NCBI GenBank assembly: GCA_027313705.1
Contig: DAHVDE010000065.1
Span: forward strand, 1 to 64,000
Source: Actinomycetota bacterium
Lineage (GTDB): Bacteria; Actinomycetota; Actinomycetes; Streptosporangiales; Streptosporangiaceae
Direction: 5' to 3'
Length of the DNA: 64,000 nt
The notes under the pieces are model-generated. The model was given only the letters and a program-made list of their open reading frames with translations, ran no database searches and had not been told where the DNA came from. Positions 2,799-28,140 of this stretch are shown here, piece by piece. Every line of letters begins with the position of its first letter. The first letter of the stretch is position 1. The position numbers were made by a program, and so were the translations under genes.

Positions 2799-4064
2799 TT
2801 ATCCGGCCGCCCAGGGCAAGAAGCTGGCGTTCTCCGCGATCAGCTTCCCTGCCAGCTTGCTGGCCTGGTCGTACTGGCCGATGAGCGGATTGGCGAGCAG
2901 TGCCTTGACCACGCGGTCCTCGCCGCCATGCAGCGCGGCATCGACGGCAAGCTCCTCGTAAGCGGACGCGTGCGCGATCAGCCCGCCAAGCAGCGGGCTG
3001 ACCGGCGCGACAGGTACAGCCACCGGGCCGGTCCCCTTGATGACGGCGGGCACCTCGATGACGGCCTCGTCGGGCAGGAAAGGCATGGTGCCCGCGTTGC
3101 GCAGGTTCACGACCTGGACGTCACCGGTGTCGTTCACCAGCGAGGCGAGCAGTGCGACAGCGGCTTCTGAGTAAAACGCGCCGCCACGCTGCCCGAGCAG
3201 TTCCGGCTTCTTGTCAAGAGCCGGATCTGCGTACATCGCGAGCAGTTGCCGCTCGATCTCCGCGACCGAATGCGCCCGGGTCTGCTGCCCGCGCAGTTCG
3301 CAGACCACGCGATCGTGCTCGTAGTAATAGCGCAGGTAATAAGAAGGCACGGTGCCGCCGGTAAGGTGCAGCAAGGGTTCTGGCATCCGCACCAGCGCCG
3401 CGATGTCGGCACCGCGCTCGGCGAGGAGCGAAGGCAGCTTGTCCTCCCCGTCCACAACCAAGGACCGCTCCCAGGTCAGGTGATTAAGCCCGACGTGACC
3501 AAGGCTTACCCGCTCTGGCGGCACCCCGAGCCACCCGGCGAAGATCCGCTGGAAGCCGATGGCCACATTGCACAGGCCGACGGCGCGATGTCCTGCGTCG
3601 AGCAATGCCCTGGTCACGATGCCGACGGGGTTGGTGAAGTCGATGATCCAGGCGCCCTGCGCCGCCCTCCGCCTCGCCCGCCCGGCGATGTCGAGCACGA
3701 CAGGAACCGTGCGCAGCGCCTTCGCCAGCCCTCCTGCCCCGGTCGTCTCCTGGCCGACGCAGCCGCAGTCAAGCGGCCAGGTCTCGTCCCTGTGCCTGGC
3801 CGCCTGCCCGCCCACCCGCAGTTGCAGCAGCACGCCGCCGGCTCCGTCGAGTCCTTCGTCGGTGTCCGCCGTCCACCTGACCCGAGCCGGGTGCCCGTAG
3901 GCGCGCATGATCCGGTCGCTGAACGGCCCGACCAGGGAAAGCCTGCTCTCGTCCGGATCGACGAGCACGATCTCGGAGACCTTGACCTGTTCGGCGAGCC
4001 GCGCGATCCCGTCGATCAGCTCTGGTGTGTAGGTCGAGCCTCCGCCGATGACAGCGAGTTTCAT
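2799..4064 (-). CDS. Family 4 glycoside hydrolase, 6-phospho-beta-glucosidase type
   Basis: A 421-residue GH4 enzyme. This family cleaves 6-phospho-glycosides by an NAD- and divalent-metal-dependent redox/elimination mechanism. Visible are the Rossmann NAD motif GGGSTYTPELI at residues 7-17, the family signature VGQETTGAGG at about 103-112, DFTNPVGIVTRA at about 142, and the metal ligands Cys (GLCNVAIG, about residue 166) and His (GLNHLTW, about 195). The length is normal. The start codon directly abuts the stop of the preceding ATPase gene, and the next gene begins 2 bases downstream. Most GH4 phospho-glucosidases act after PTS uptake. Here the partner is an ABC importer plus kinases. Substrate (cellobiose-, chitobiose- or other beta-linked 6-phosphate) is undetermined. 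Confidence 0.9.
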   Translation of the reverse strand: MKLAVIGGGSTYTPELIDGIARLAEQVKVSEIVLVDPDESRLSLVGPFSDRIMRAYGHPARVRWTADTDEGLDGAGGVLLQLRVGGQAARHRDETWPLDCGCVGQETTGAGGLAKALRTVPVVLDIAGRARRRAAQGAWIIDFTNPVGIVTRALLDAGHRAVGLCNVAIGFQRIFAGWLGVPPERVSLGHVGLNHLTWERSLVVDGEDKLPSLLAERGADIAALVRMPEPLLHLTGGTVPSYYLRYYYEHDRVVCELRGQQTRAHSVAEIERQLLAMYADPALDKKPELLGQRGGAFYSEAAVALLASLVNDTGDVQVVNLRNAGTMPFLPDEAVIEVPAVIKGTGPVAVPVAPVSPLLGGLIAHASAYEELAVDAALHGGEDRVVKALLANPLIGQYDQASKLAGKLIAENASFLPWAAG

Positions 4065-5060
4065 TCAGAAAGCCTTTACCTCTGCGCCTGACTGGGCGAC
4101 GTGGCAGGCGGCCTCGTGGCCGTCCGCGATGGGCTTGAGCTGCGGTGTGAGGCTGTGGCATGCCTCGACCGCGACGGGGCAGCGCCACCTGAACCGGCAG
4201 CCGGGAACGGGATCGATCACCTTCGGCGGTTCGCCCCGGTCGGTTTCCGCGTTCACGCTAAGCGGCGCGCGCGGGTCGGGCGCCGCGGAAAGCAGCAGCT
4301 GGGTGTAGGGGTGCCTGGGCGCGGCGAGTACCTCCTCGATCGGCCCGGTCTCGGCGATCTGGCCCGCATACATGACGATCAGCCGGTCGGCGATGTACCT
4401 GGCGCTCGCGAGGTCATGCGTGATGAACAGGATCGAGACGTTCTCGCTGTCTCGCAGCGCCGCCATCAGGTTCAGCAGCCCGATCCTGATCGAGACGTCG
4501 AGCATGGAGACCGGTTCGTCGGCCAGGATCAGCTTGGGCCGCATCGCCAGCGCCTGAGCGAACCCGACCCGCTGCCGCTGGCCGCCGCTCAGTTCGTGCG
4601 GGTAGCGCTCGAGCACATCGGCCGCGGGCGTGAGGCCGACAATGTCGAAAACCCGGCACGCCTCCTGGTACATCTCCTTGCTTGTCAGGTCTTTGCGGTG
4701 CAGTTTCAGGCCGCGCATGATGCCGTGCGACACGCGGAACACCGGATTGATCGACGCGAACGGATCCTGGAACACCATCGGTGCCAGCCCGGAATAACGC
4801 AGCCGGTCAGGGCGCGATCTTATTGACGAAAGCTTCTTTCCCTCAAAAAACACCTCGCCGCTGGTCGGCCGGTAGACCCTGGCCAGCAGCCGGGCAATGG
4901 TCGATTTGCCGCTGCCGCTCTCACCCGCGAGCGCGACGATCTCACGTTCGCCGATTGTCAAGCTGACGTCGTCGACGGCGTGCAAGGTGCGGCGCGACAG
5001 CGCGTTGCCGATCCTGAAGTGCTTGGTCAGTCCCTCGGTGCGGAGCAAAGGCTCGGTCAT
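4065..5060 (-). CDS. Oligopeptide/oligosaccharide ABC transporter ATP-binding protein (OppF/DppF type)
   Basis: A 331-residue nucleotide-binding subunit. Walker A is GESGSGKST (about residue 44), the ABC signature LSGGQRQRVGFAQAL, and Walker B LILADEPVSML, with H-loop ITHDLA. The C-terminal OppF-type domain (CRFRWRCPVA, with Cys) resembles the iron-sulfur or cysteine cluster seen in this subfamily. The frame extends 33 codons upstream, but I chose the ATG at 5060 because it overlaps the previous gene's TGA (ATGA) and begins the standard domain (MTEPLL...). It pairs with the upstream OppD-type subunit to power the two permeases. The binding protein in the operon suggests peptide-type import machinery, and the sugar genes around it suggest a carbohydrate cargo. 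Confidence 0.9.
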   Translation of the reverse strand: MTEPLLRTEGLTKHFRIGNALSRRTLHAVDDVSLTIGEREIVALAGESGSGKSTIARLLARVYRPTSGEVFFEGKKLSSIRSRPDRLRYSGLAPMVFQDPFASINPVFRVSHGIMRGLKLHRKDLTSKEMYQEACRVFDIVGLTPAADVLERYPHELSGGQRQRVGFAQALAMRPKLILADEPVSMLDVSIRIGLLNLMAALRDSENVSILFITHDLASARYIADRLIVMYAGQIAETGPIEEVLAAPRHPYTQLLLSAAPDPRAPLSVNAETDRGEPPKVIDPVPGCRFRWRCPVAVEACHSLTPQLKPIADGHEAACHVAQSGAEVKAF

Positions 5061-6106
5061 GCGACGTTCCCGTCGTGGCGGAAGCAGCGGACCTGCGTGC
5101 CTTCGACCTGGTAGAGCGGAGGGCGCTCGGTCGCGCAGCGGTCGAGTACCTTCGCGCACCTGGGCGCGAACCAGCAGCCCCCGACGCGTTTGGCCAGGTT
5201 GGGCGGACTGCCGCCGATTCCGGTCAGCGGCACCTTTGGCCCCCTGATCGAGGGAAACGCCTCCATCAGCCCCTCGGTGTACGGATGCCGCGGCGAGTCG
5301 AACAACTGCCTGGTCGCACCGACCTCGGCGACCTGACCCGCGTACATGACCATGAGCCGGTCGGAGAAATGCGAGACAAGTGACATGTCGTGGGTGACGA
5401 AGATGACCGCGAAGCCGAACTGCTCCTGAAGTTCCTTGATCTGCACCATGAGTGATCGCTGGGCCACGACGTCGAGCGCCGAGGTCGGCTCGTCCATGAT
5501 CACTAGCTCGGGCGTGAACAGCAGTGCCATCGCGATCATGGACCGCTGCCGCATGCCGCCGGAAAGCTGGTGCGGATAGCTCTTCAGGTGCACGGGATCG
5601 ATGCCGACCATCTTCAGCACTTCGGCCGAGCGATCCCCGATCTCGGCGTTCGACCTGACACCGTGCGCCCGCATCGCATCCTTGAACTGCGCGCCGATCG
5701 ACTTAACCGGGTTCAGCGCGTTCATCGCGCTCTGCATGACAACGGACAGGTCCTTCCACCTGATCGCGATCAGCGACTTGTCGGTCAGCCCGACCAGGTT
5801 CCTGCCCCTGAACATGACACTGCCGCTCGTAACCCGGGCCGGCGGGGCGAGCAGTTGCGCGACGGCGAACAGCATCGTGGACTTGCCGCAGCCTGACTCG
5901 CCGACCACGGCGACGAACTCGCCTGAGTCAAGCGAGAAGTTCACCTGATCGACCGCGAGCACGCTGCCGCCCTCGGTGACGTACTCGACCGACAAGTCGC
6001 GCACGTCCAGGACGGTACCCGTTCGTTGCCGCGGCGCGTCTTCCTGCGTGCGCACGAGCGGGGGAGCGGACTTCTGCTGCCGCCCCGATGGACTAGCTGG
6101 TTGCAC
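5057..6106 (-). CDS. Oligopeptide/oligosaccharide ABC transporter ATP-binding protein (OppD/DppD type)
   Basis: A 349-residue ATPase subunit with Walker A GESGCGKST (about residue 75), signature LSGGMRQRSMIAMAL, Walker B LVIMDEPTSALD and H-loop VTHDMSL. The C-terminal Cys-containing oligopeptide-transporter domain (GGCWFAPRCAKVLDRC) is present. The GTG start at 6106 has an AGGAGG four bases upstream and overlaps the end of the permease gene by 14 bases. The first 30 residues are polar and poorly conserved, so a later start is possible. It works as a heterodimer with the neighbouring OppF-type protein. Confidence 0.9.
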   Translation of the reverse strand: MQPASPSGRQQKSAPPLVRTQEDAPRQRTGTVLDVRDLSVEYVTEGGSVLAVDQVNFSLDSGEFVAVVGESGCGKSTMLFAVAQLLAPPARVTSGSVMFRGRNLVGLTDKSLIAIRWKDLSVVMQSAMNALNPVKSIGAQFKDAMRAHGVRSNAEIGDRSAEVLKMVGIDPVHLKSYPHQLSGGMRQRSMIAMALLFTPELVIMDEPTSALDVVAQRSLMVQIKELQEQFGFAVIFVTHDMSLVSHFSDRLMVMYAGQVAEVGATRQLFDSPRHPYTEGLMEAFPSIRGPKVPLTGIGGSPPNLAKRVGGCWFAPRCAKVLDRCATERPPLYQVEGTQVRCFRHDGNVA

Positions 6107-7097
6107 TGGTCCTCCTGAGCGATCGCGGCTGCTTCTGCCGCCTGACCGGCCGAAGCGCCGGGTTGCCTACCTCGTCGAACGCATAGTTGAGCAGGGCGAA
6201 GGCGGCGCCCAGGGCGACGATGCACAGACCGGGGGCGATGATCCACAGGGTCTGGCCGGTTTGGAAAGCCTCGTTGTTCTCCGCCGCGCGGAGCATGGTG
6301 CCCCAGCTCACCTGATTGGGATCGCCGAGCCCGATGAACTGCAAGCTGCTTGAGAACAGCACCGCATAGAGCGCGTTGGTCAGGAAACTGGCTACGAGCA
6401 GCGAGGTCATGGTCGGGATGATCTCCACGATGATGATGTAGATCGGCCGCTCGCCGCGTACCCGCGCCGCCTCGAGGAAGTCGCGCTTGCGCAGGGACAG
6501 TGCCTGGCTGCGGAGCTGCCTGGCGGTGAAGGACCATCCGGTCAGCGTCAGCACCGCGATCATCACGCCGGTGCTTGCGCCGTTCAGGTACCCGGCGATC
6601 ACGATCAGCAGCGGGAACAGCGGTATGACCAGCAGGATGTCGGTGAGCAGGCTGAGCACGTTGTCCCAGATGCCGCCCAGGTAGGCGGCGGCCACGCCGA
6701 CTAGCACGGCGATGCCTGTCGAGGCAAGGCCGACGCCGAACGCGATCTCGAGCACTGGCCTTGCGCCCCAGATCACTTGCGAGAACAGGTCCTCGCCATT
6801 GCCGTTGGTGCCGAGCAGGTGATGCCAGGACGGCCCGAGGCCGACCTTGAACTGACCAGTCTGGTTCGGGTTGCCGTGCGAGACGATCGCGGTGACGATG
6901 GTGACCAGGCAGAAGAACAGCAGCAGCCCCGCCCCCCAGCTAGCCTTCCGGTTGGACCTGACCGCCTTGCCCATCCCGGCGAGGGCGCGAAGCGCGGGGG
7001 ACCTGCTGCGCCCTGATCGTCCGGCGGACGGGCCGAGGCCGGTGAGCTCGATCGGGACGGCGGGCTCAGTCGTCCCGCCAGGAATGATCATCGCCAT
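6093..7097 (-). CDS. ABC transporter permease (OppC/DppC type)
   Basis: A 334-residue integral membrane protein. A cytoplasmic N-terminus (about 45 residues) leads into a first membrane segment (WGAGLLLFFCLVTIVTAIV) and a periplasmic loop carrying the OppC_N-type motif LGTNGNGEDLFSQVIWGAR. The BPD_transp_1 core follows, with the EAA-loop region RKRDFLEAARVRGERPIYII. It forms the translocation pore with the DppB-type permease encoded 5 bases upstream. It overlaps the downstream ATPase start. Confidence 0.92.
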   Translation of the reverse strand: MAMIIPGGTTEPAVPIELTGLGPSAGRSGRSRSPALRALAGMGKAVRSNRKASWGAGLLLFFCLVTIVTAIVSHGNPNQTGQFKVGLGPSWHHLLGTNGNGEDLFSQVIWGARPVLEIAFGVGLASTGIAVLVGVAAAYLGGIWDNVLSLLTDILLVIPLFPLLIVIAGYLNGASTGVMIAVLTLTGWSFTARQLRSQALSLRKRDFLEAARVRGERPIYIIIVEIIPTMTSLLVASFLTNALYAVLFSSSLQFIGLGDPNQVSWGTMLRAAENNEAFQTGQTLWIIAPGLCIVALGAAFALLNYAFDEVGNPALRPVRRQKQPRSLRRTSATS

Positions 7098-7102
7098 GGC
7101 GT

Positions 7103-8086
7103 TTATCCCGCGTCCCTTGTCCTTGGATCGAGAATCGCGGTCGCGATGTCAGACAGCAGGATCGCCACCAGCACCGCGACGGTGATCAGCAGGAAGAGCG
7201 CCTGCATGAGGGGATAGTCATCGTTGTTGACCGCCGCCAGCAGCCAGAAGCCGACGCCCTGGTAGTTGAAGACGTACTCGACGAGGATCGCGCCGCCGAG
7301 CACGAAGCCGAGCGACATCGCGAACCCGGTGAGGTTGGGCAGGATGGCATTGCGCGCAGCGTAATCGAACATTATGCGCCGGCTCGACAGGCCCTTGGCC
7401 CGCGCCATCCGCACGTAGTCGTCGGCCAGGGTCGTGATCATGGTGTTGCGCATGGTCAGGATCCAGGTGCCGATGGTCGTGATCAGCAAGGTAAAGGCGG
7501 GCAGAATGGCGTGCTGTATGACATCCCAGATGAAGCTGAGCGTGAAGCCAGGCGTGTCGGTGTAGCTGTAGCTGTTGATGTATGGCAGCCAGTGCAGCTT
7601 GACGCCGAATATCAGGATCAGCACCAGGCCGAGCCAGAAATAGGGGACCACCGAGGTGATCACGAATACCGGCGGCATGACGCTGTCGAGCACCCCGCCC
7701 CGGCGCCAGGCGCCGACGATGCCGATGAGGGTGCCGAATATGAACGCCAGGACCGTGGTCAGCCCGACCAGGCCGAGCGTCCAGAAGATCGCTTGCATGA
7801 TGATGTGCCCGACAGAAGCCGGGTACTCGGAAAGCGAGGTGCCGAAGTTGCCGGTGGCGACGTCCTTCAGGTAGCTGAAGTACTGGCTGATCACGCTATG
7901 CCTGGTGTTCACGCCGAACTGCACCTCGAGGGTATGCAGTGCCTGCGGTGAGACCCCGCCCTTGAACTTGGCGATCATGGCGACCGCCGGGTTGCCGGGC
8001 ATGAGCCTCGGCAACGCGAAGTTGAGCGTGAGCGCGGCCCACAAGGTGAGCAGGAAGAAGCCCAGACGGCGAAGCACGAATCTCAT
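7103..8086 (-). CDS. ABC transporter permease (OppB/DppB type)
   Basis: A 327-residue permease. The N-terminus MRFVLRRLGFFLLTLWAALTL is the typical first membrane helix. The family motif RLMPGNPA follows at about residue 28, and the EAA loop DDYVRMARAKGLSSRRIMFDYAARNA sits near residue 220. It is the first permease after the binding-protein gene and is separated from it by a strong hairpin (8131-8171). It pairs with the OppC-type permease 5 bases downstream. Confidence 0.92.
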   Translation of the reverse strand: MRFVLRRLGFFLLTLWAALTLNFALPRLMPGNPAVAMIAKFKGGVSPQALHTLEVQFGVNTRHSVISQYFSYLKDVATGNFGTSLSEYPASVGHIIMQAIFWTLGLVGLTTVLAFIFGTLIGIVGAWRRGGVLDSVMPPVFVITSVVPYFWLGLVLILIFGVKLHWLPYINSYSYTDTPGFTLSFIWDVIQHAILPAFTLLITTIGTWILTMRNTMITTLADDYVRMARAKGLSSRRIMFDYAARNAILPNLTGFAMSLGFVLGGAILVEYVFNYQGVGFWLLAAVNNDDYPLMQALFLLITVAVLVAILLSDIATAILDPRTRDAG

Positions 8087-8130
8087 GCCTTGCTTCCAAT
8101 CCCGAGTGCTGTCCTAATCGTCGCCCGTGA

Positions 8131-8171
8131 AGGTGGCTGGCGGAAGGGTGAAGCCCTTCCGGCAGCCACCT
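8131..8171 (-). promoter_or_regulatory. Strong intercistronic hairpin between binding protein and permease genes
   Basis: Arms 8131-8148 and 8154-8171 are complementary over 18 bases with a single mismatch, around a 5-base loop. No T-tract follows on the minus strand. Such hairpins between the binding-protein gene and the membrane components of ABC operons commonly protect the upstream message or partly terminate, so that the binding protein is made in excess. That role here is inferred. Confidence 0.75.
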
Positions 8172-8176
8172 CGCCC

Positions 8177-9853
8177 TTACTTGGCCGGCGTCAGGTGCAG
8201 CATCACCTGGCCCCAGTCCGGGTAGTTGTAGGCCGCGGGCTGCGCGTACGGGTCGCCTGGCGTCGGCCAGCCGCTGAAGGACGCGGTGTCGTACTGGAAC
8301 CAGTCGACCGACTCGGTCACCGGGATCACCGGCACGTCGGCCAGCATGACCTTCTCAAGCTGGTCCACGATCTGCTGCTGCGTCGCCGGGTTCGTCGTGG
8401 CCGGGTACTCGTTGATGAGCTTGTCTGTCGCCGTGCTGGCGTAGCGCTCGAAGTTCGAGCCGGCCGGCGTGCCGATCGGGGCCGAGTTCGCCGAGTACAG
8501 CCACTGACGGAGCTCGAAGTACGGGCTAGGACCGCCGGTCTCGCTTCCGTAGCCGAGCTGGAACTGGCCGGCATAGAGCTTGTCCTGGTAGGTGGTCTGC
8601 GACAGGTCCTGCGGCGTCACCTGAATGCCGACGGCCTTCAGGTCAGCCACGATCACGTTGACCGCGTTCACCCAGTCGGAGAAGCCGCCGTTGTTGATGA
8701 TCGTAAACGACAGCGGCTGGCCGTTCTTGGCGAAGATGCCATTGGAGCCCATGGTGAAGCCGGCGTTCTTGAGGATCGAGATCGCCTTCTTCGGGTTGTA
8801 GGCATAGTTGTTGCCGAACTGCGCTGCCTGCGAGGAATCCAGCCACGAACTGAAGGTCGGCGTCACGATGCCGGTCTGGTTGGAGGCGGGCTCCTCGCCG
8901 AACTCACCGATCGAGGCGGCCTTCTGCCTGTCGATCGCGTAGGCCATGGCCTGCCGCACGGCCACGTTGGAAAGCAGCGGGTTCTTCAGGTTGATGAACA
9001 TCGAGACGTTCGCGACTGGCGGGAACCACCATTTGATCGCCGGCTGGGCCTTGAGGAACGTGCTGATATCGGGGATGAACTGGCTGCCCCATTGCGCGTT
9101 GCCCGCCGACAGGAACGTGTTCGCCGTGTCGTTCGTGAGGAAGGCCGGGTAGTTGACCGTTCCGACCTTCGGCTCGCCCTTCACCCAGTAGTTCGGGTTG
9201 GCGGTGTACTTGATGTTCTGCGGAGTGCACGTCGTGCTGCTGACCTCGTACGGGCCGGTACCGATCGGGTTGGTGTCCGGGTACTTGACCGGGTCGGAGA
9301 TCTTCGACCAGACCTTGGAGTCCACGATGCCGATCTGGTCGGCGATGTAGTAGAAGTACGTCACCGCGGGCGCCTTGAACTGCATGACCACCTGGTCAGA
9401 ACCCTGCTGGGAAACGCTGGAGAGCACGGACCATACCGCGTTGATGTCAAGCGTCTTGTTCTGCCTCAGCAAGTTGAACGTATAGACGACGTCGGCCGCG
9501 GTCAGCGGGTCGCCGTTGGTGAACTTCACGCCATTGCGGATCGTGAAGGTCAGCGTCTTGTTGCCGTTGCTCCATGCGTAGCTGGTGGCCAGCCAGGGCG
9601 TGGTCTTGGCGTCGTTCAGCGTGTCGACGAAGACCAGTGGCTCGTAGACGTTGCCGAGCGAGAACGAGATGTCGGAGAGGTTGAACGGGTTGAAGTCACA
9701 CGTCCAGTTGCCGCCGCTCTCGTTGTCGATCGTAAGAACGCCGGATGCGGTCGATGTCCCCTTGCCGCCGCTGCTGCTACTGCTGCTTGAGCAGGCAGCA
9801 GCTAGCACGCCGCAAGACGCGAGGACGACCCCGTACTTGATAAGGCGTCTCAT
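8177..9853 (-). CDS. Extracellular solute-binding lipoprotein, family 5 (SBP_bac_5)
   Basis: A 558-residue secreted lipoprotein. The signal peptide MRRLIKYGVVLASCGVLAAAC ends in a lipobox (LAAAC) followed by a Ser/Gly linker. The body is the family 5 fold: NVYEPLVFVDTLNDAK, TFTIRNGVKFTNGDPLTAADVVYTF (the classic signature near residue 100) and NPIGTGPYEV. This family binds peptides but also oligosaccharides such as cellobiose in some bacteria. It is the first gene of the minus-strand operon, and its promoter must lie in the spacer 9854-10294 shared with the divergent operon. The surrounding glycosidase and kinase genes favour a sugar ligand, which is inference. Confidence 0.92.
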   Translation of the reverse strand: MRRLIKYGVVLASCGVLAAACSSSSSSSGGKGTSTASGVLTIDNESGGNWTCDFNPFNLSDISFSLGNVYEPLVFVDTLNDAKTTPWLATSYAWSNGNKTLTFTIRNGVKFTNGDPLTAADVVYTFNLLRQNKTLDINAVWSVLSSVSQQGSDQVVMQFKAPAVTYFYYIADQIGIVDSKVWSKISDPVKYPDTNPIGTGPYEVSSTTCTPQNIKYTANPNYWVKGEPKVGTVNYPAFLTNDTANTFLSAGNAQWGSQFIPDISTFLKAQPAIKWWFPPVANVSMFINLKNPLLSNVAVRQAMAYAIDRQKAASIGEFGEEPASNQTGIVTPTFSSWLDSSQAAQFGNNYAYNPKKAISILKNAGFTMGSNGIFAKNGQPLSFTIINNGGFSDWVNAVNVIVADLKAVGIQVTPQDLSQTTYQDKLYAGQFQLGYGSETGGPSPYFELRQWLYSANSAPIGTPAGSNFERYASTATDKLINEYPATTNPATQQQIVDQLEKVMLADVPVIPVTESVDWFQYDTASFSGWPTPGDPYAQPAAYNYPDWGQVMLHLTPAK

Positions 9854-10063
9854 GCTTAAGCCCTTCGGTTGCGGCGTCTAGGCGCAAACGCCGCCTGGAC
9901 GCCTTGGTTACCCCTGCGCGCTGCAGTTAGGGGATCGCCGTCGGCTCGCGCGCTCATGCCGGACGGTTCTGGGCCGGGAGTCCGGCGGTGGTGCCGAGGA
10001 TGCCGCCCTGCAGCCTCGACGGTATGCCAGGTTTAGGCATTTAACCTACGAATCTTGCAACGC

Positions 10064-10093
10064 TTGGAACTTTGGGTGCGACGACGCTATTCT
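10064..10093 (+). promoter_or_regulatory. Possible promoter of the PfkB-GH4-ROK operon
   Basis: A TTGGAA hexamer at 10064-10069 and TATTCT at 10088-10093 are separated by 18 bases. A start site about 7 bases later would fall at the left edge of the palindrome at 10098-10122, so a bound repressor would block it. The match to consensus is moderate. Confidence 0.4.
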
Positions 10094-10097
10094 GGAG

Positions 10098-10122
10098 ATT
10101 GTTAGGACAGTATCCTAACAAT
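10098..10122. promoter_or_regulatory. 25-base operator-like palindrome, probably bound by the ROK regulator
   Basis: Perfect 10-base arms ATTGTTAGGA and TCCTAACAAT flank the 5-base spacer CAGTA. It is the only long perfect dyad in the divergent spacer and sits beside the putative plus-strand start site. ROK repressors bind inverted repeats of about this size, and a ROK gene is the third gene of the adjacent operon. Recognition by that protein is inference. Confidence 0.6.
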
Positions 10123-10294
10123 CAAGGCGCTAACAGAGTTCGTGGCCGAACCGTGACCTGGCACCTGAAGTCTGGATGAAAGACCTGATCGGGCCGGGGT
10201 GGCCCGACTGCAGGTGAAGTGAGTCGCGCCTAAGGCGAGACAAGTATCGGCGCTCGGCCGAGGTGGCACGGGCTGGCTGCGGAGGCTGGGTTAC

Positions 10295-11269
10295 TTGGAC
10301 ATGATCTCGTTCGGGACGGTCTTCCTCGAGCTGGTTTTCGGGCAGCTAGACGCGCTGCCAGGACCAGGCGAAGAGGTCTTCACCGAGGAATTCGCGATCT
10401 CCTGCGGCGGTGCGGTGACCAGCGCCACCGCCGCTGCGGCTGGCGGCGCGAAGGCAGGCGTGTGCACCAGGCTCGGTGAGGATCTCGGCTCCCAGGTGGC
10501 GATCGAGCACTGCACTGGCGCGGGCATTGACCTCAGTACGTCTGCGCAAATCGCCGGGCCTGCGGCCGGCATCACCGTGGTGCTCAACTTCGCCGGAGAC
10601 CGGGGCTTCGTCACGCACAGTCCGCCTCGGGGGTCAGGCGAGCCACCGCAGACCGAGCGCTGGCTCAGTGTCCTGCGGGCCGAGCGCCCGGCCTGGTGCT
10701 ACCTGCACGCTGGCTGGGGGGTGCCGAGGATACTGCGCGAAGCGCGCGAGCTCGGCTGCAAGGTCATGCTGGACATCTCGCTCGGCGACGAGCGTGAAGG
10801 CGACGTCATCTTCGAGTGCATCAAGCTGGCCGACATCTTCGTGCCGAACGGCGACGAGCTGCTCAGGCTGACCGGCGCGGCCACGTTCGATGCCGCCGTC
10901 GCCGCCGCGACCAGATGGGGCACTCAACTTGTCGTGACCAGGGGCGCGGCGGGCGCGGCCGTCTCGCACCCGGATGGCTCGTTCACCGAGGTGGCCAGCG
11001 GCGTCGGTGCGGTCAGGGTCAGGGATCTCACCGGGGCTGGCGACAACTTCGCCGGGGCGCTGATCGCGGCGCTTGTCGGTGGTGCTCGCCTGACCGATGC
11101 TGTCGTGGCGGCGAACGCAGCCGGCTCAAAGGCCGTGGGACAGCTAGGAGCCATCGGTCAGGTCGACGTCGGCAGCGGCGGGCGGCCGTTGCGGCCGATG
11201 CTCTTCAATCATGGACTAGCTGGTGCGGCGGGCGCGCCCCGGCCGCAAGAGACGCTGGAGCGTGGCTGA
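10295..11269 (+). CDS. PfkB-family carbohydrate kinase
   Basis: A 324-residue ribokinase-like sugar kinase. The N-terminal glycine pair region (SCGGAVTSATAAAAGG, about residues 36-51) and the C-terminal signature DLTGAGDNFAGALIAAL (about 247-263) with the catalytic Asp are clear. VPNGDELLRLTG in the middle is also typical. It uses ATP to phosphorylate a sugar in the cytosol, but the substrate is not evident. A TTG at 10295 has GGAGG nine bases upstream, better spaced than the ATG at 10301, so I prefer TTG but either is possible. It opens the plus-strand operon, and its TGA overlaps the next ATG by one base. Confidence 0.88.
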   Translation: MDMISFGTVFLELVFGQLDALPGPGEEVFTEEFAISCGGAVTSATAAAAGGAKAGVCTRLGEDLGSQVAIEHCTGAGIDLSTSAQIAGPAAGITVVLNFAGDRGFVTHSPPRGSGEPPQTERWLSVLRAERPAWCYLHAGWGVPRILREARELGCKVMLDISLGDEREGDVIFECIKLADIFVPNGDELLRLTGAATFDAAVAAATRWGTQLVVTRGAAGAAVSHPDGSFTEVASGVGAVRVRDLTGAGDNFAGALIAALVGGARLTDAVVAANAAGSKAVGQLGAIGQVDVGSGGRPLRPMLFNHGLAGAAGAPRPQETLERG

Positions 11270-12663
11270 TGAAACTGACAATCCTGGGCGGCGGCGGTGT
11301 GAGGATGCCGGCCTTCGTGCGGTCCGTGCTGGCCGGCCAGCCAGCGGCGTTCGATGAGATCTGCCTGCTCGAACCGGACGCGACCAGGCGGGCCACGACC
11401 GGCCGCCTCGCCAGGGAGCTCGCCGCGGTGTTCGGCCGGCCTGGGACGGTGACCTTGACCGAAGACGCTGCGCAGGCGTTCACCGGTGCCGACTACGTGT
11501 TCTCGGCGATCCGGGTCGGTGGTGACCGCGGCCGGGTAATCGACGAGCAGGTCGCCCTGCGGCGCGGCATCGTCGGGCAGGAGACGACGGGACCAGGCGG
11601 CGGCGCGATGGCGCTGCGTACCATCCCGGTCGTGCTGGCTTACTGCGACTTGCTCAGCAAGTGCTCGCCAGGCGCGATCCTGATTAACTTCACCAACCCC
11701 GCCGGGCTGATCACGCAGGCGATCAGCGCCCAGGGCAAGGTGAAGGCGGTCGGGGTGTGCGACACCCCGTCAGGGACCATTCGCGACCTGACCAGGTATC
11801 TCGACCTCGAAGGGGCGTATGTCTCGGCCGGCTACAGCGGGCTCAACCACCTCGGCTGGGTGACCTCTTTCACGGCCGACGGCACCGAACTGCTTCCCGA
11901 GCTGCTCGGCAGGTTCGACGAGCTCGCACGGTCGGTGAAGCAGTTCGGCCCGTTCGACCCGAGCGAGGTGCGCCGGGTCGGTGCGCTGCCTACCGAATAC
12001 GTGTATTACTACTATGACTCGCGCCGTTACATCGATGGCGTCGCCAAGGCGGGCGCCAGCCGGGGGCAAGACGTGCTCGCGCTGAACGAGGAACTGATGA
12101 CCGCGCTCGGGAGGGCGTTCGCCAATGGCGGCGTGCATGAGGCGTGGACGGCGTACTCCACCTTGCTCGGCGTCCGGCGGGACACGTACATGCGAACCGA
12201 CACCGAGGGCGACAACGGACAGGCGGCCGCCCGTGCCGAGCGCGCGGCCCGCGGCCAGGTGCCGATTGGCGCGGAGCGGATCGGCGGCTACGAAGGGCTC
12301 GCGTTGCGGGTCATCGACGGATTGTCCGGGCGAGAGCCTGGCAACGTGATCGTCAACACCCGTAACGGCGACACCATCGACTTTCTCGAGCCGGACGACG
12401 TGGTGGAAATTCCGGCCCGGGTCGATGCCGCCGGACTGACCTCGCTCGGCCCGCAGCCAGAGCTGCCGATGTCCGCCCGGGCGCTGGTCGAGGCCGTGAA
12501 GGGCTACGAGCGCGGCATCGTGGCGGCCGCGGTCGCCGCAGACGCGGACCTGGCCGCCGTCGCGCTGGCGCAGCATCCCCTGGTGCCCGGCATCACGGCG
12601 GCGCGTGAACTGCTTGCCGACTATCGTGAGCAGCATGGCGAGCACCTCGCCTACCTGCGGTAA
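11269..12663 (+). CDS. Second family 4 glycoside hydrolase (6-phospho-glycosidase type)
   Basis: A 464-residue GH4 enzyme distinct from the one on the other strand. Its NAD motif is LGGGGVRMPAFVRSVL, without the Ser-x-Thr of the first GH4. It keeps IVGQETTGPGGGAMALRTIP, NFTNPAGLITQA, the metal-binding Cys in VGVCDTPSG and His in GLNHLGW. The ATG at 11269 overlaps the kinase stop (TGATG) and has GGAG upstream. The frame is also open upstream of this ATG inside the kinase gene, but that part is an artefact. The divergence from the first GH4 suggests a different substrate or a different linkage within one pathway. Confidence 0.9.
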   Translation: MKLTILGGGGVRMPAFVRSVLAGQPAAFDEICLLEPDATRRATTGRLARELAAVFGRPGTVTLTEDAAQAFTGADYVFSAIRVGGDRGRVIDEQVALRRGIVGQETTGPGGGAMALRTIPVVLAYCDLLSKCSPGAILINFTNPAGLITQAISAQGKVKAVGVCDTPSGTIRDLTRYLDLEGAYVSAGYSGLNHLGWVTSFTADGTELLPELLGRFDELARSVKQFGPFDPSEVRRVGALPTEYVYYYYDSRRYIDGVAKAGASRGQDVLALNEELMTALGRAFANGGVHEAWTAYSTLLGVRRDTYMRTDTEGDNGQAAARAERAARGQVPIGAERIGGYEGLALRVIDGLSGREPGNVIVNTRNGDTIDFLEPDDVVEIPARVDAAGLTSLGPQPELPMSARALVEAVKGYERGIVAAAVAADADLAAVALAQHPLVPGITAARELLADYREQHGEHLAYLR

Positions 12664-12673
12664 CCCGTTGCCG

Positions 12674-13906
12674 ATGACAGATATCCCGCAGGCGCAGGCG
12701 GCGCGGCCGCAACTGATCAGGGCGATGAACGAGCAGTTGCTGCTCAGCCAGATCCGCCAGCTCGGCGTCTGCTCCCGCGCCGACCTCGCGCGGCTTTCCG
12801 GACTGTCGAAGCCGACGGTGTCGCTGGCCCTGGCTAACGTGGAACGGTCGGGTCTGGTGCGGACGGCTGGTCAGCGGACCGGGGTACCTGGCCGGTCGGC
12901 CGTGCTTTACGAGATCAGGCCGGAAGCGGGATACGTGCTCGGGCTGGACATCGGGCACGAGTATCTTCGCGGGGCGCTGGCCGACCTGACGGGCGAGGTG
13001 CGGGCTAAGGCCGAGGCCAGGAGCCCGTCTGACAATGTACTTAACCGGGTCGGCGAGCTGATCAAGCTGGCCGATGGCATCTGCGCGGTTGCCGGGATCG
13101 GCCGGGAGCAGGTGACCCAGACCGTGCTCGGCTGCCCGGGCGTCTACGACCCGAGCAGGGATGCGATCGTGCTCACCGGCGGCCTGCCCGGCTGGGACCG
13201 CAGGGCCGTGCTCGCGAAGCTGCGTGCAGCTTTCGGCTCCGAGTTCAAAGTGGAGAACGACATCGACGCGGCCGCACTTGCCGAACGCGACCACGGGCAC
13301 GGTCGCGACTTCCCCAGCTTCGCGTTCGTGTCGATCGGCAGCGGCATCGGCATGGGCCTGGTACTTGGCGGGCAACTGCACCGGGGGGCGCACGGCGTGG
13401 CCGGGGAGATAGCGTTCCTGCCGATCGCCGAGGGTCACAGCGGGGCGGACGACTCAGAAGTACGCAAGCGGGGGTCGCTCGAGGCCGACGGCGCCGCATC
13501 GGCGATCGTCAGGTCCGCTAAGCAGGCCGGCCTCCGCGCCTCTTCGGCGCGGCAGGTATTCGCGGCGGCCGAGGCGGGCGACGAGCGGGCGAGCGCCATC
13601 GTGGCTACCGAGGCCCGCCTGGTCGCCAAGGCTATCTGCGCCATCGTGACCGTGATCGACCCCGGGCTCGTAGTGCTCGGCGGCGGCATCGGCCAGGCGC
13701 CAGGCTTCGCCGCGACTGTCACCGCCGAGCTCGCGAAGATCTCGCCGGTGCTGCCCGAGATCAGGGTGAGCGCGCTAGGGACGAGCGCCATCGTCGACGG
13801 CTGCCTGGCCGGAGGCGCCGACCTGGCCTGGGCCAGGCTGACGGCCCAGCTTGCGCAAGCCCAGCCGGACGGAGAGCAGGCCGCCGTTAGCTGGCCGGTC
13901 ACCTAG
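12674..13906 (+). CDS. ROK-family transcriptional regulator
   Basis: A 410-residue repressor of the NagC/XylR type. The N-terminal winged helix-turn-helix (residues about 15-75, with SRADLARLSGLSKPTVSLAL) is followed by the ROK sugar-binding/kinase-like domain (LGLDIGHEYLRGALADL, then the glycine motifs SIGSGIGMGLVLGG and GAHGVAGEIAFLPI). The usual zinc cluster CxCGxxGCxE is not apparent after the GEI motif, where the sequence reads GHSGADDSEVRKRGSLEADG. The missing cysteines are notable. It ends the plus-strand operon, 10 bases after the GH4 stop, and is the likely regulator of both divergent operons through the palindrome at 10098-10122. Its own operon placement suggests autoregulation. Confidence 0.9.
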   Translation: MTDIPQAQAARPQLIRAMNEQLLLSQIRQLGVCSRADLARLSGLSKPTVSLALANVERSGLVRTAGQRTGVPGRSAVLYEIRPEAGYVLGLDIGHEYLRGALADLTGEVRAKAEARSPSDNVLNRVGELIKLADGICAVAGIGREQVTQTVLGCPGVYDPSRDAIVLTGGLPGWDRRAVLAKLRAAFGSEFKVENDIDAAALAERDHGHGRDFPSFAFVSIGSGIGMGLVLGGQLHRGAHGVAGEIAFLPIAEGHSGADDSEVRKRGSLEADGAASAIVRSAKQAGLRASSARQVFAAAEAGDERASAIVATEARLVAKAICAIVTVIDPGLVVLGGGIGQAPGFAATVTAELAKISPVLPEIRVSALGTSAIVDGCLAGGADLAWARLTAQLAQAQPDGEQAAVSWPVT

Positions 13907-26737: not shown

Positions 26738-28140
26738 GTCTCCTGGCTGCGGTAGCTTTCCGCGACGGTGAAGGCCAGGTCGAGTGCCTGGCTGCGGTTG
26801 AGGCGCGGGTCGCAGGCGGTCTCGTAGCGCTGGTGCAGGTCGTCTACGGCGAGTTCGAAGCTGCCGCCGGTGCACTCGGTGACGTTGTCGCCGGTGAATT
26901 CGATGTGGATACCGCCCGGGTGAGTCCCCTTGGCCCTGTGCACGGCGAAGAAACCGGCTACCTCGTCGAGCACGGCGTCCAGGTGCCTGGTTTTGACGCC
27001 GCTCTGGGTCTCGAAGGTGTTGCCGTGCATCGGATCGCAGATCCAGGCTACCGGGGCGCCGTCGCTGGCTACCGCATCGACCAGGGGCGGCAGCACCTCG
27101 GCGATGCGGCCCGCGCCCATCCTGGTGATCAGGGTCAGCTTGCCAGGGATCCGGTCGGGGTTCAGTTGCCTGATGAGGACGAGCAGGTCCTCAGGAGTGG
27201 TGCCAGGCCCGATCTTGACGCCGACCGGGTTGGCGATGGACTTGGCGAACTCGAGGTGAGCCCCGCCTAGCTGCCTGGTGCGTTCGCCGATCCAGGGGAA
27301 GTGCGTGGACGTGTCGTAGATCTTGCCTGTACGCGAGTCGACTCTGGAAAGCGCGTACTCGTAGTCAAGCAGCAGTGCCTCGTGGCTGGAGTAGAACTCG
27401 ACGGTGTGCAACTCGGCCGGGTCGGTACCGCACGCGCGCATGAAGGCGAGCGCACGATCGATGTCGCCTGCCAGCCGTTCATAACGTTGCCCCGCCGGGC
27501 TGTCAGCGACGAAGTCGTGGTTCCAGGCGTGCACCTGCCGCAGGTCGGCGTAGCCGCCGGTGGTAAATGCCCGGCACAAGTTCAGCGTCACGGCCGAGCA
27601 GTGGTACGCGCGAAGCAGGCGTCCTGGGTCAGGCCTCCGCGCTTGCGGTGAGAAGTCGAATCCGTTGACCGCGTCGCCGCGGTAGGCAGGCAGTTCGACC
27701 CCGTCCCTGGTCTCCGTCGGCTTGGATCTCGGCTTGCCGAACTGGCCAGCCATCCGCCCGATCTTCACGACGGGCACGGTCGCGCCGTAGGTAAGCACGA
27801 CCGCCATTTGAAGCAGGGTCCGCAGCTTGGCCCTGACCGCGGTGGCGTTAGACCCGGCGAACGTCTCGGCGCAGTCGCCGCCCTGCAGCACGAAGGCCTC
27901 GCCGCGGGTCACCGCGGCGAGGCGTTCTGTCAGCAGGTCACACTCGCCGGCGAAGACCAGCGGCGGCATGCCGGAGAGTTCGTCAGTCACCTCCGCCAGG
28001 CGATCAGCATCTGGCCAGTCAGGCTGCTGTGCCGATGGCTGCTCTGGCCAGCGCTCACGCCAGGGCAGGCGATCGGTGGCAGGCAACTCGGTGGGGAACG
28101 CGAAATTGCCCTGAAGCGATGGGGTCGAGGTCACGCTCAT
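26734..28140 (-). CDS. 3-deoxy-7-phosphoheptulonate synthase, class II (plant/AroH-type)
   Basis: A 468-residue class II DAHP synthase. It condenses phosphoenolpyruvate and erythrose 4-phosphate, the first step of the shikimate pathway. Family blocks are continuous: FVLQGGDCAETF, RMAGQFGKPRSKPTE, LPAYRGDAVNGF, HTVEFYSSHEALLLDYE, NPVGVKIGPGTTPEDLL, CDPMHGNTFE and IEFTGDNVTECTGG. The metal-binding Cys/His/Glu/Asp residues are in these blocks. Length is normal. It is divergent from dxr across a GC-extreme spacer and overlaps the convergent methyltransferase stop by 4 bases. Confidence 0.95.
   Translation of the reverse strand: MSVTSTPSLQGNFAFPTELPATDRLPWRERWPEQPSAQQPDWPDADRLAEVTDELSGMPPLVFAGECDLLTERLAAVTRGEAFVLQGGDCAETFAGSNATAVRAKLRTLLQMAVVLTYGATVPVVKIGRMAGQFGKPRSKPTETRDGVELPAYRGDAVNGFDFSPQARRPDPGRLLRAYHCSAVTLNLCRAFTTGGYADLRQVHAWNHDFVADSPAGQRYERLAGDIDRALAFMRACGTDPAELHTVEFYSSHEALLLDYEYALSRVDSRTGKIYDTSTHFPWIGERTRQLGGAHLEFAKSIANPVGVKIGPGTTPEDLLVLIRQLNPDRIPGKLTLITRMGAGRIAEVLPPLVDAVASDGAPVAWICDPMHGNTFETQSGVKTRHLDAVLDEVAGFFAVHRAKGTHPGGIHIEFTGDNVTECTGGSFELAVDDLHQRYETACDPRLNRSQALDLAFTVAESYRSQET

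Follow-up and report, generated by a model that had tools for sequence, protein, structure and literature searches.

A conserved palindrome between divergent sugar operons of a Streptosporangiaceae bacterium as the probable operator of a ROK-family regulator

Introduction

The described system closest to the locus presented here is that of CsnR, a ROK-family regulator of Streptomyces that represses csnA and the csnREFGHK cluster, the latter encoding an ABC transporter, a GH4 enzyme and a kinase (PMC6097792). The same report gives the CsnR box the consensus AGGAAANTTTCCT, in which positions 5 and 9 matter most for binding, and names (GlcN)2 as the best competitor in this system (PMC6097792). 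The CsnR palindrome overlaps the csnN106 start site, and either deletion of csnR or mutation of the operator leads to derepression (PMC3048496). The site of S. lividans contains TAGGAAACTTTCCTA (PMC4856308), and a cluster of the same kind is described in Kitasatospora setae (PMC5635096). Sites reported for RokB and other ROK proteins (Mlc, NagC and others) measure about 28-31 bp (PMC4856308).

We analyzed a stretch of 64,000 nucleotides, hereafter the window, from an Actinomycetota bacterium of the family Streptosporangiaceae (assembly GCA_027313705.1, contig DAHVDE010000065.1, positions 1 to 64,000), in which a palindrome lies between two divergent operons, one encoding an Opp-type transporter and a GH4 glycosidase (GH4a) to its left, and the other a sugar kinase, a second GH4 glycosidase (GH4b) and a ROK protein to its right (Table 1). 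As in csnREFGHK, a ROK gene, GH4, kinase and ABC transporter genes are found together, with a site in the promoter region of the cluster. The window cluster differs from csnREFGHK in its Opp-type transporter, its two GH4 genes, its PfkB kinase and its arrangement as two divergent operons. An earlier sequence-only reading of the window had proposed that the palindrome could serve the ROK protein as an operator controlling both operons at once.

Table 1. Features of the divergent sugar locus (coordinates are those of the window)
Feature	Position	Strand	Evidence or remark
Operator palindrome, 11-bp arms and centre CAGTA	10097..10123	none	Letters and inverted-repeat searches
Conserved operator core GTTAGGACAGTATCCTAAC	10101..10119	none	8/8 aligned spacers; 25/341 family genomes at no more than 1 mismatch
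Solute-binding protein (SBP) SBP_bac_5, first gene of left operon	8177..9853	-	PF00496; start 247 bp from core
ABC transporter permease, Opp/Dpp type	7103..8086	-	PF00528
ABC transporter permease, Opp/Dpp type	6093..7097	-	PF00528
ABC transporter ATPase, Opp/Dpp type	5057..6106	-	PF00005 and PF08352
ABC transporter ATPase, Opp/Dpp type	4065..5159	-	PF00005 and PF08352
GH4 glycosidase (GH4a)	2799..4064	-	PF02056/PF11975
PfkB-family sugar kinase, first gene of right operon	10295..11269	+	PF00294
Second GH4 glycosidase (GH4b)	11269..12663	+	PF02056/PF11975; overlaps kinase gene
ROK-family regulator, proposed operator binder	12674..13906	+	PF00480, 126.9 bits; begins 10 bp after GH4b
TATTCT, possible rightward -10 with TTGGAA (10064-10069)	10088..10093	+	8/12 consensus bases; not conserved
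TACTGT, proposed -10 of leftward transporter promoter	10107..10112	-	24/27 copies; 3/6 consensus bases
Proposed leftward -35 position, CTGTTA in window	10131..10136	-	TTG-type in 14/27 copies; 3/6 consensus bases

Results

A single long palindrome in the divergent spacer

The palindrome was first reported as a 25-base dyad at 10098-10122, composed of ATTGTTAGGA (10098-10107), CAGTA (10108-10112) and TCCTAACAAT (10113-10122). These letters and coordinates are exact, and the dyad gains one further pair on each side, yielding arms of 11 bp around a 5-bp centre (GATTGTTAGGA CAGTA TCCTAACAATC) with a G+C content of 37% against 66.5% for the window. This element had been described as the only long perfect dyad of the spacer; the inverted-repeat search of 9700-10500 listed no longer perfect one. 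Elsewhere in the window, arms of at least 11 bp separated by 0-10 bases are found at one other place, 27896-27923, a GC-rich perfect inverted repeat with 12-bp arms and a 4-base spacer that is the longest in the window.

Taken as a dyad alone, the palindrome is only mildly unusual and constitutes weak evidence. Sixty first-order Markov sequences of 64 kb and of the composition of the window, searched for arms of at least 11 bp with a spacer of 0-10, yielded a mean of 0.6 such dyads per 64 kb, with at least one in 22 of the 60 runs and exactly one dyad of spacer 5 across all of them. A chance dyad, which the frequency of similar structures in these simulated windows might suggest, is nonetheless given next to no credence, as it is contradicted by the conservation and ROK co-occurrence described below and, for the core, refuted by the comparison of 341 genomes; it is its conservation among relatives that sets the palindrome above chance. 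A 23-base pattern, picked after the site was seen, was matched at 3 mismatches in none of 100 shuffles.

A search of the whole source genome, as had been suggested together with the palindrome, returned this single site and no second copy of the 23-base pattern at up to 3 mismatches, which excludes a random distribution of the motif; a wider regulon was set aside on the same result. The 17-base core at up to 2 mismatches occurs at 10 places including this one, compared to 42 for a reversed control pattern.

Conservation of the site and its linkage to the ROK gene

A protein search of 40 relatives identified ten ROK orthologues (63-81% identity), and the DNA surrounding them was then inspected for the core, tolerating up to 2 mismatches and imposing nothing on its five central bases. 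The core is present near the ROK gene in G003, G023, G006 (2 mismatches), G018, G015 (1 mismatch), G017 and G021; it was not found under these settings near that of G005. The contigs carrying the ROK genes of G001 and G004 end early, and the sites of these two genomes are located on other contigs, adjoining kinase and SBP genes. All eight aligned spacers, the window included, display the CAGTA centre in the same orientation relative to ROK, and their flanks diverge.

A survey of 341 genomes of the family, with a cut-off of E <= 1e-100 for ROK orthologues and no more than 1 mismatch to the core GTTAGGACAGTATCCTAAC, found a ROK orthologue in 26 genomes and the core in 25. Both are present in 23 genomes, ROK only in 3, the site only in 2 and neither in 313 (Fisher p = 2.4e-30, relatedness being ignored). 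The genomes with ROK only are G006, whose site has 2 mismatches, G005, whose site is degraded (ROK 63% identical), and G347, whose site has a different centre (ROK 51% identical). As for those with the site only, a truncated contig of G282 holds a ROK fragment (78% identity), and the site of G284 lies 92 bp from a contig end. Site copies track ROK copies, G288 having two of each and G002, which belongs to the genus of the window, having neither.

Position relative to neighboring genes was compared in 27 copies from 12 genera, a set that includes G006 (2 mismatches), omits G005 and G347, and was assembled by matching the core, such that the invariance of the core in it is partly a matter of selection. 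The site adjoins the ROK gene or the kinase gene heading the ROK operon in 26 of the 27 copies; to the right of the core are found ROK (21 copies), the kinase (5) or a contig end (1) and, to the left, an SBP gene in 23 copies within the stretch examined. The site stays with ROK where the kinase and GH4b are absent, pointing to ROK as its reader and suggesting self-regulation. The first copy of G288 is flanked by GH4b and ROK and falls outside any divergent spacer. Co-occurrence and gene order support the earlier proposal of an operator of the ROK protein positioned for both operons, and we consider it very probable that the ROK protein of the window uses this palindrome as its single, local operator.

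A number of variant sites and arrangements were observed among the loci examined. G347, which branches at the base of the window ROK clade, has TGATAGGAAACTAACCTATCA upstream of its ROK gene (position 209635; L155, contig C105), with the operator frame kept around a third centre. Another centre, GTTAGGAACACTTCCTAAC, maps at 7616-7634 of L103 (G015, contig C43); that contig also carries the ROK gene, at a distance of approximately 5 kb. In G019, a genome without a close ROK orthologue, GTTAGGACAGTATCTAAAC (2 mismatches; L154, contig C7, 1032862-1032880) is found just upstream of a start codon, and the first residues of the downstream product resemble by eye a GH42 beta-galactosidase. Finally, in L030 (G005, 7822-8750) and in L157 (G284), the site region and the SBP gene are separated by a further ROK protein; no DNA-binding part was matched in this intervening protein, which is probably a sugar kinase.

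Relationship of the window ROK protein and its site to CsnR

The ROK protein of the window has the N-terminal winged helix and ROK domain characteristic of the family: its match to PF00480 is over the cut-off, its N-terminal matches to MarR and Crp helix-turn-helix models are below it, and its alignment with structurally solved ROK proteins starts at residue 9 or 12. Residues are numbered from the Met at 12674, this ATG being preferred to a GTG at 12605 given that conservation among orthologues sets in shortly after it. The zinc motif CxCGxxGxxE and the GExGH motif are typical of many ROK proteins, but not of all regulators. Neither was found in any of the 60 ROK proteins compared, CsnR-type proteins included; their lack in the latter indicates that their absence is no bar to a repressor role, and it leaves the ligand of the window ROK protein uncertain.

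In a maximum-likelihood tree of these 60 proteins, which carries long branches, G347 among them, 27 window-clade and 26 CsnR-type proteins split at 100/100, and no grouping of the window ROK protein with Streptomyces CsnR was found. The second group was named CsnR-type with the ROK protein of Streptomyces violaceorubidus taken as its anchor. The genome of this species holds the published site, and its best ROK match, 56% identical to a CsnR-type protein and with GTTAGGAAAGTTTCCTGTT upstream, was on these grounds equated with CsnR.

Both groups keep GLSKPT in their DNA-binding region, and 18 positions of this region differ consistently between them, as compared in 26 of the 27 window-clade proteins (G347 left out) and in a CsnR-type set without L090, whose ROK match is partial. 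A Gln found in all 26 CsnR-type proteins corresponds to Leu51 in 25 of the 26 window-clade proteins, and Gly-Thr of the former corresponds to Ala10-Arg11 in the latter. Leu51, Ala10-Arg11 and other differing residues are candidates for reading operator positions 5 and 9; for Leu51, this role is drawn from the alignment, literature searches on ROK-DNA contacts having contributed nothing to it.

The canonical box TTAGGAAANTTTCCTAA occurs in 242 of the 341 family genomes and in only 2 (G285, G287) of the 25 with a window-type site, a rarity that relatedness may explain in part. The listed box matches examined are those made into loci, 29 of them new (L065-L093); the non-canonical boxes L054, L057, L060, L062 and L063 were left out of the study. 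A ROK gene whose product is 30-35% identical to the window ROK protein lies within approximately 150 bp of the box in 26 of 30 canonical-box loci; none is present in the stretch examined of L059, L066, L085 and L087, of which L085 has a GH4. Five canonical-box loci have GH4 proteins that share 62-69% identity with GH4a, in two cases across short fragments. Together with the half-sites and spacing of the published site and the joint presence of ROK, GH4, kinase and ABC transporter genes, this likeness of GH4a could suggest that the site is simply a CsnR box served by a CsnR orthologue, and that chitosan oligomers act as the inducer. We find this improbable given that positions 5 and 9 are precisely those at which the centre departs from the CsnR box, that the ROK groups separate as described above, that the transporter is of the Opp type, and that a search for GH46, the chitosanase family looked for, found no member in the source genome.

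Promoter signals around and within the operator

A scan of 9850-10300 for consensus promoters returned none at threshold. The sequence-only reading had placed the palindrome over a likely start site, beside TATTCT. This hexamer is indeed present and, spaced 18 bp from TTGGAA, makes up the best scoring of the promoters considered in the window. As a promoter element it did not hold up, being found at that position in the window alone among the 27 copies, where relatives have TATCGT (G001, G003) or TGCCGG (G004); despite its better consensus score, it is retained as a bare possibility.

The centre of the operator is asymmetric, reading CAGTA in 25 of the 27 copies and TACTGT on the minus strand in 24. 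The best-kept word of the flanks is ACAAG, which 14 of the 27 copies, representing 9 of the 12 genera, have at 12-14 bp on the right-hand side of the core; no other offset tested on that side had it in more than one copy, and it was absent on the left. Read leftward, it becomes CTTGT, 17-18 bp from TACTGT, and a TTG hexamer occupies the leftward -35 place in 14 of the 27 copies versus none at the equivalent rightward place. The distance from the core to the SBP start, 247 bp in the window, is 24-75 bp in several relatives and 24 bp in G018. The conservation of ACAAG/CTTGT and TACTGT and the short gap of G018 lead us to propose that the -10 of the transporter promoter may lie within the asymmetric centre of the operator, with weak hexamers in the window (6/12 consensus bases over the two). 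That the palindrome overlaps a transcription start site is plausible. A rightward promoter with TATCCT inside the operator as its -10 was rejected, the tested -35 place showing TTG in 0/27 and TT in 9/27 copies.

About 20 bp to the right of the operator, the stretch CGTGGCCGAACCGTGA (10141-10156) is nearly unchanged in the genus of the window and in one copy of G288, and recurs more loosely in genus g73; it is a possible second control element.

The ROK protein might bind the palindrome and yet control one side only, or act as an activator, the right operon then having its promoter elsewhere. The leftward promoter signal alone is conserved and 10141-10156 might mark a separate control, as this alternative would have it, but ROK or the kinase is as constant on the right (26/27) as SBP is on the left (23/27) and CsnR is reported to repress its own operon (PMC6097792), in view of which we regard one-sided control or activation as unlikely.

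The palindrome might also act as RNA, through a hairpin or a terminator formed by a leader transcript. With its perfect 11-bp stem and 5-base loop, it would fold whichever strand is transcribed. This explanation was rejected as very improbable on the grounds that no terminator-like site was found in 9850-10300, that the loop CAGTA is conserved as strongly as the arms, and that pairing at the outermost position is frequently lost (T at -1 in 9/27 copies, T at +1 in 26/27).

Discussion

Under our preferred reading of the palindrome as the local ROK operator, a dimer of the ROK protein would most likely bind the two TTAGGA half-sites and repress both divergent operons, i.e., the Opp-type transporter and GH4a genes on the left and the kinase-GH4b-ROK genes on the right; since ROK belongs to the right operon, it would also repress itself. 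Leftward repression would proceed by occlusion of the promoter whose -10 is proposed to lie in the operator centre. A sugar ligand originating from the imported glycoside would release the ROK protein and, by analogy with CsnR, might be an amino-sugar or other oligosaccharide.

We further suggest, tentatively and as a conceivable rather than an expected history, that the site reflects a lineage-wide switch in which the half-sites of the CsnR type were kept, positions 5 and 9 changed to give a non-palindromic centre along with changes in the DNA-reading residues of the regulator, and the centre came to double as the transporter -10, the orientation of the operator being thereby fixed.

The palindrome and the ROK protein, whose binding is predicted, make a well-supported pair of operator and regulator in a sugar cluster not described before. 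The two groups have half-sites in common and are set apart by two positions of the centre and a limited number of amino acids, which makes them a natural experiment on the recognition of operator centres by ROK regulators. Predictions include a regulon of one locus and the position of the transporter promoter. Searches with the operator core strings returned no relevant match in open PubMed Central, subscription journals and regulon databases being outside their scope.

Comparison with known ROK operators

The window site resembles the sites of RokB and other ROK proteins in that ROK-family regulators are the binders, as proposed here. It differs from them in its ends, which in these sites are rich in T and in A, as in TTTGTTC-N11-GAACAAA (PMC4856308), and which in the window give TTAGGA-N5-TCCTAA. 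The likeness to the CsnR box is closer. The window site has the TAGGA-N5-TCCTA half-sites and the spacing of the S. lividans site as quoted in that report (PMC4856308), with AGGA and TCCT with five bases between them. Its sequence, AGGACAGTATCCT, departs from AGGAAANTTTCCT at positions 5 and 9 only and for this reason falls outside the strict consensus, with a CAGTA centre where the CsnR box has AANTT. The window site would work like a CsnR box, yet it fails the strict consensus of that box, and its regulator lies outside the CsnR group.
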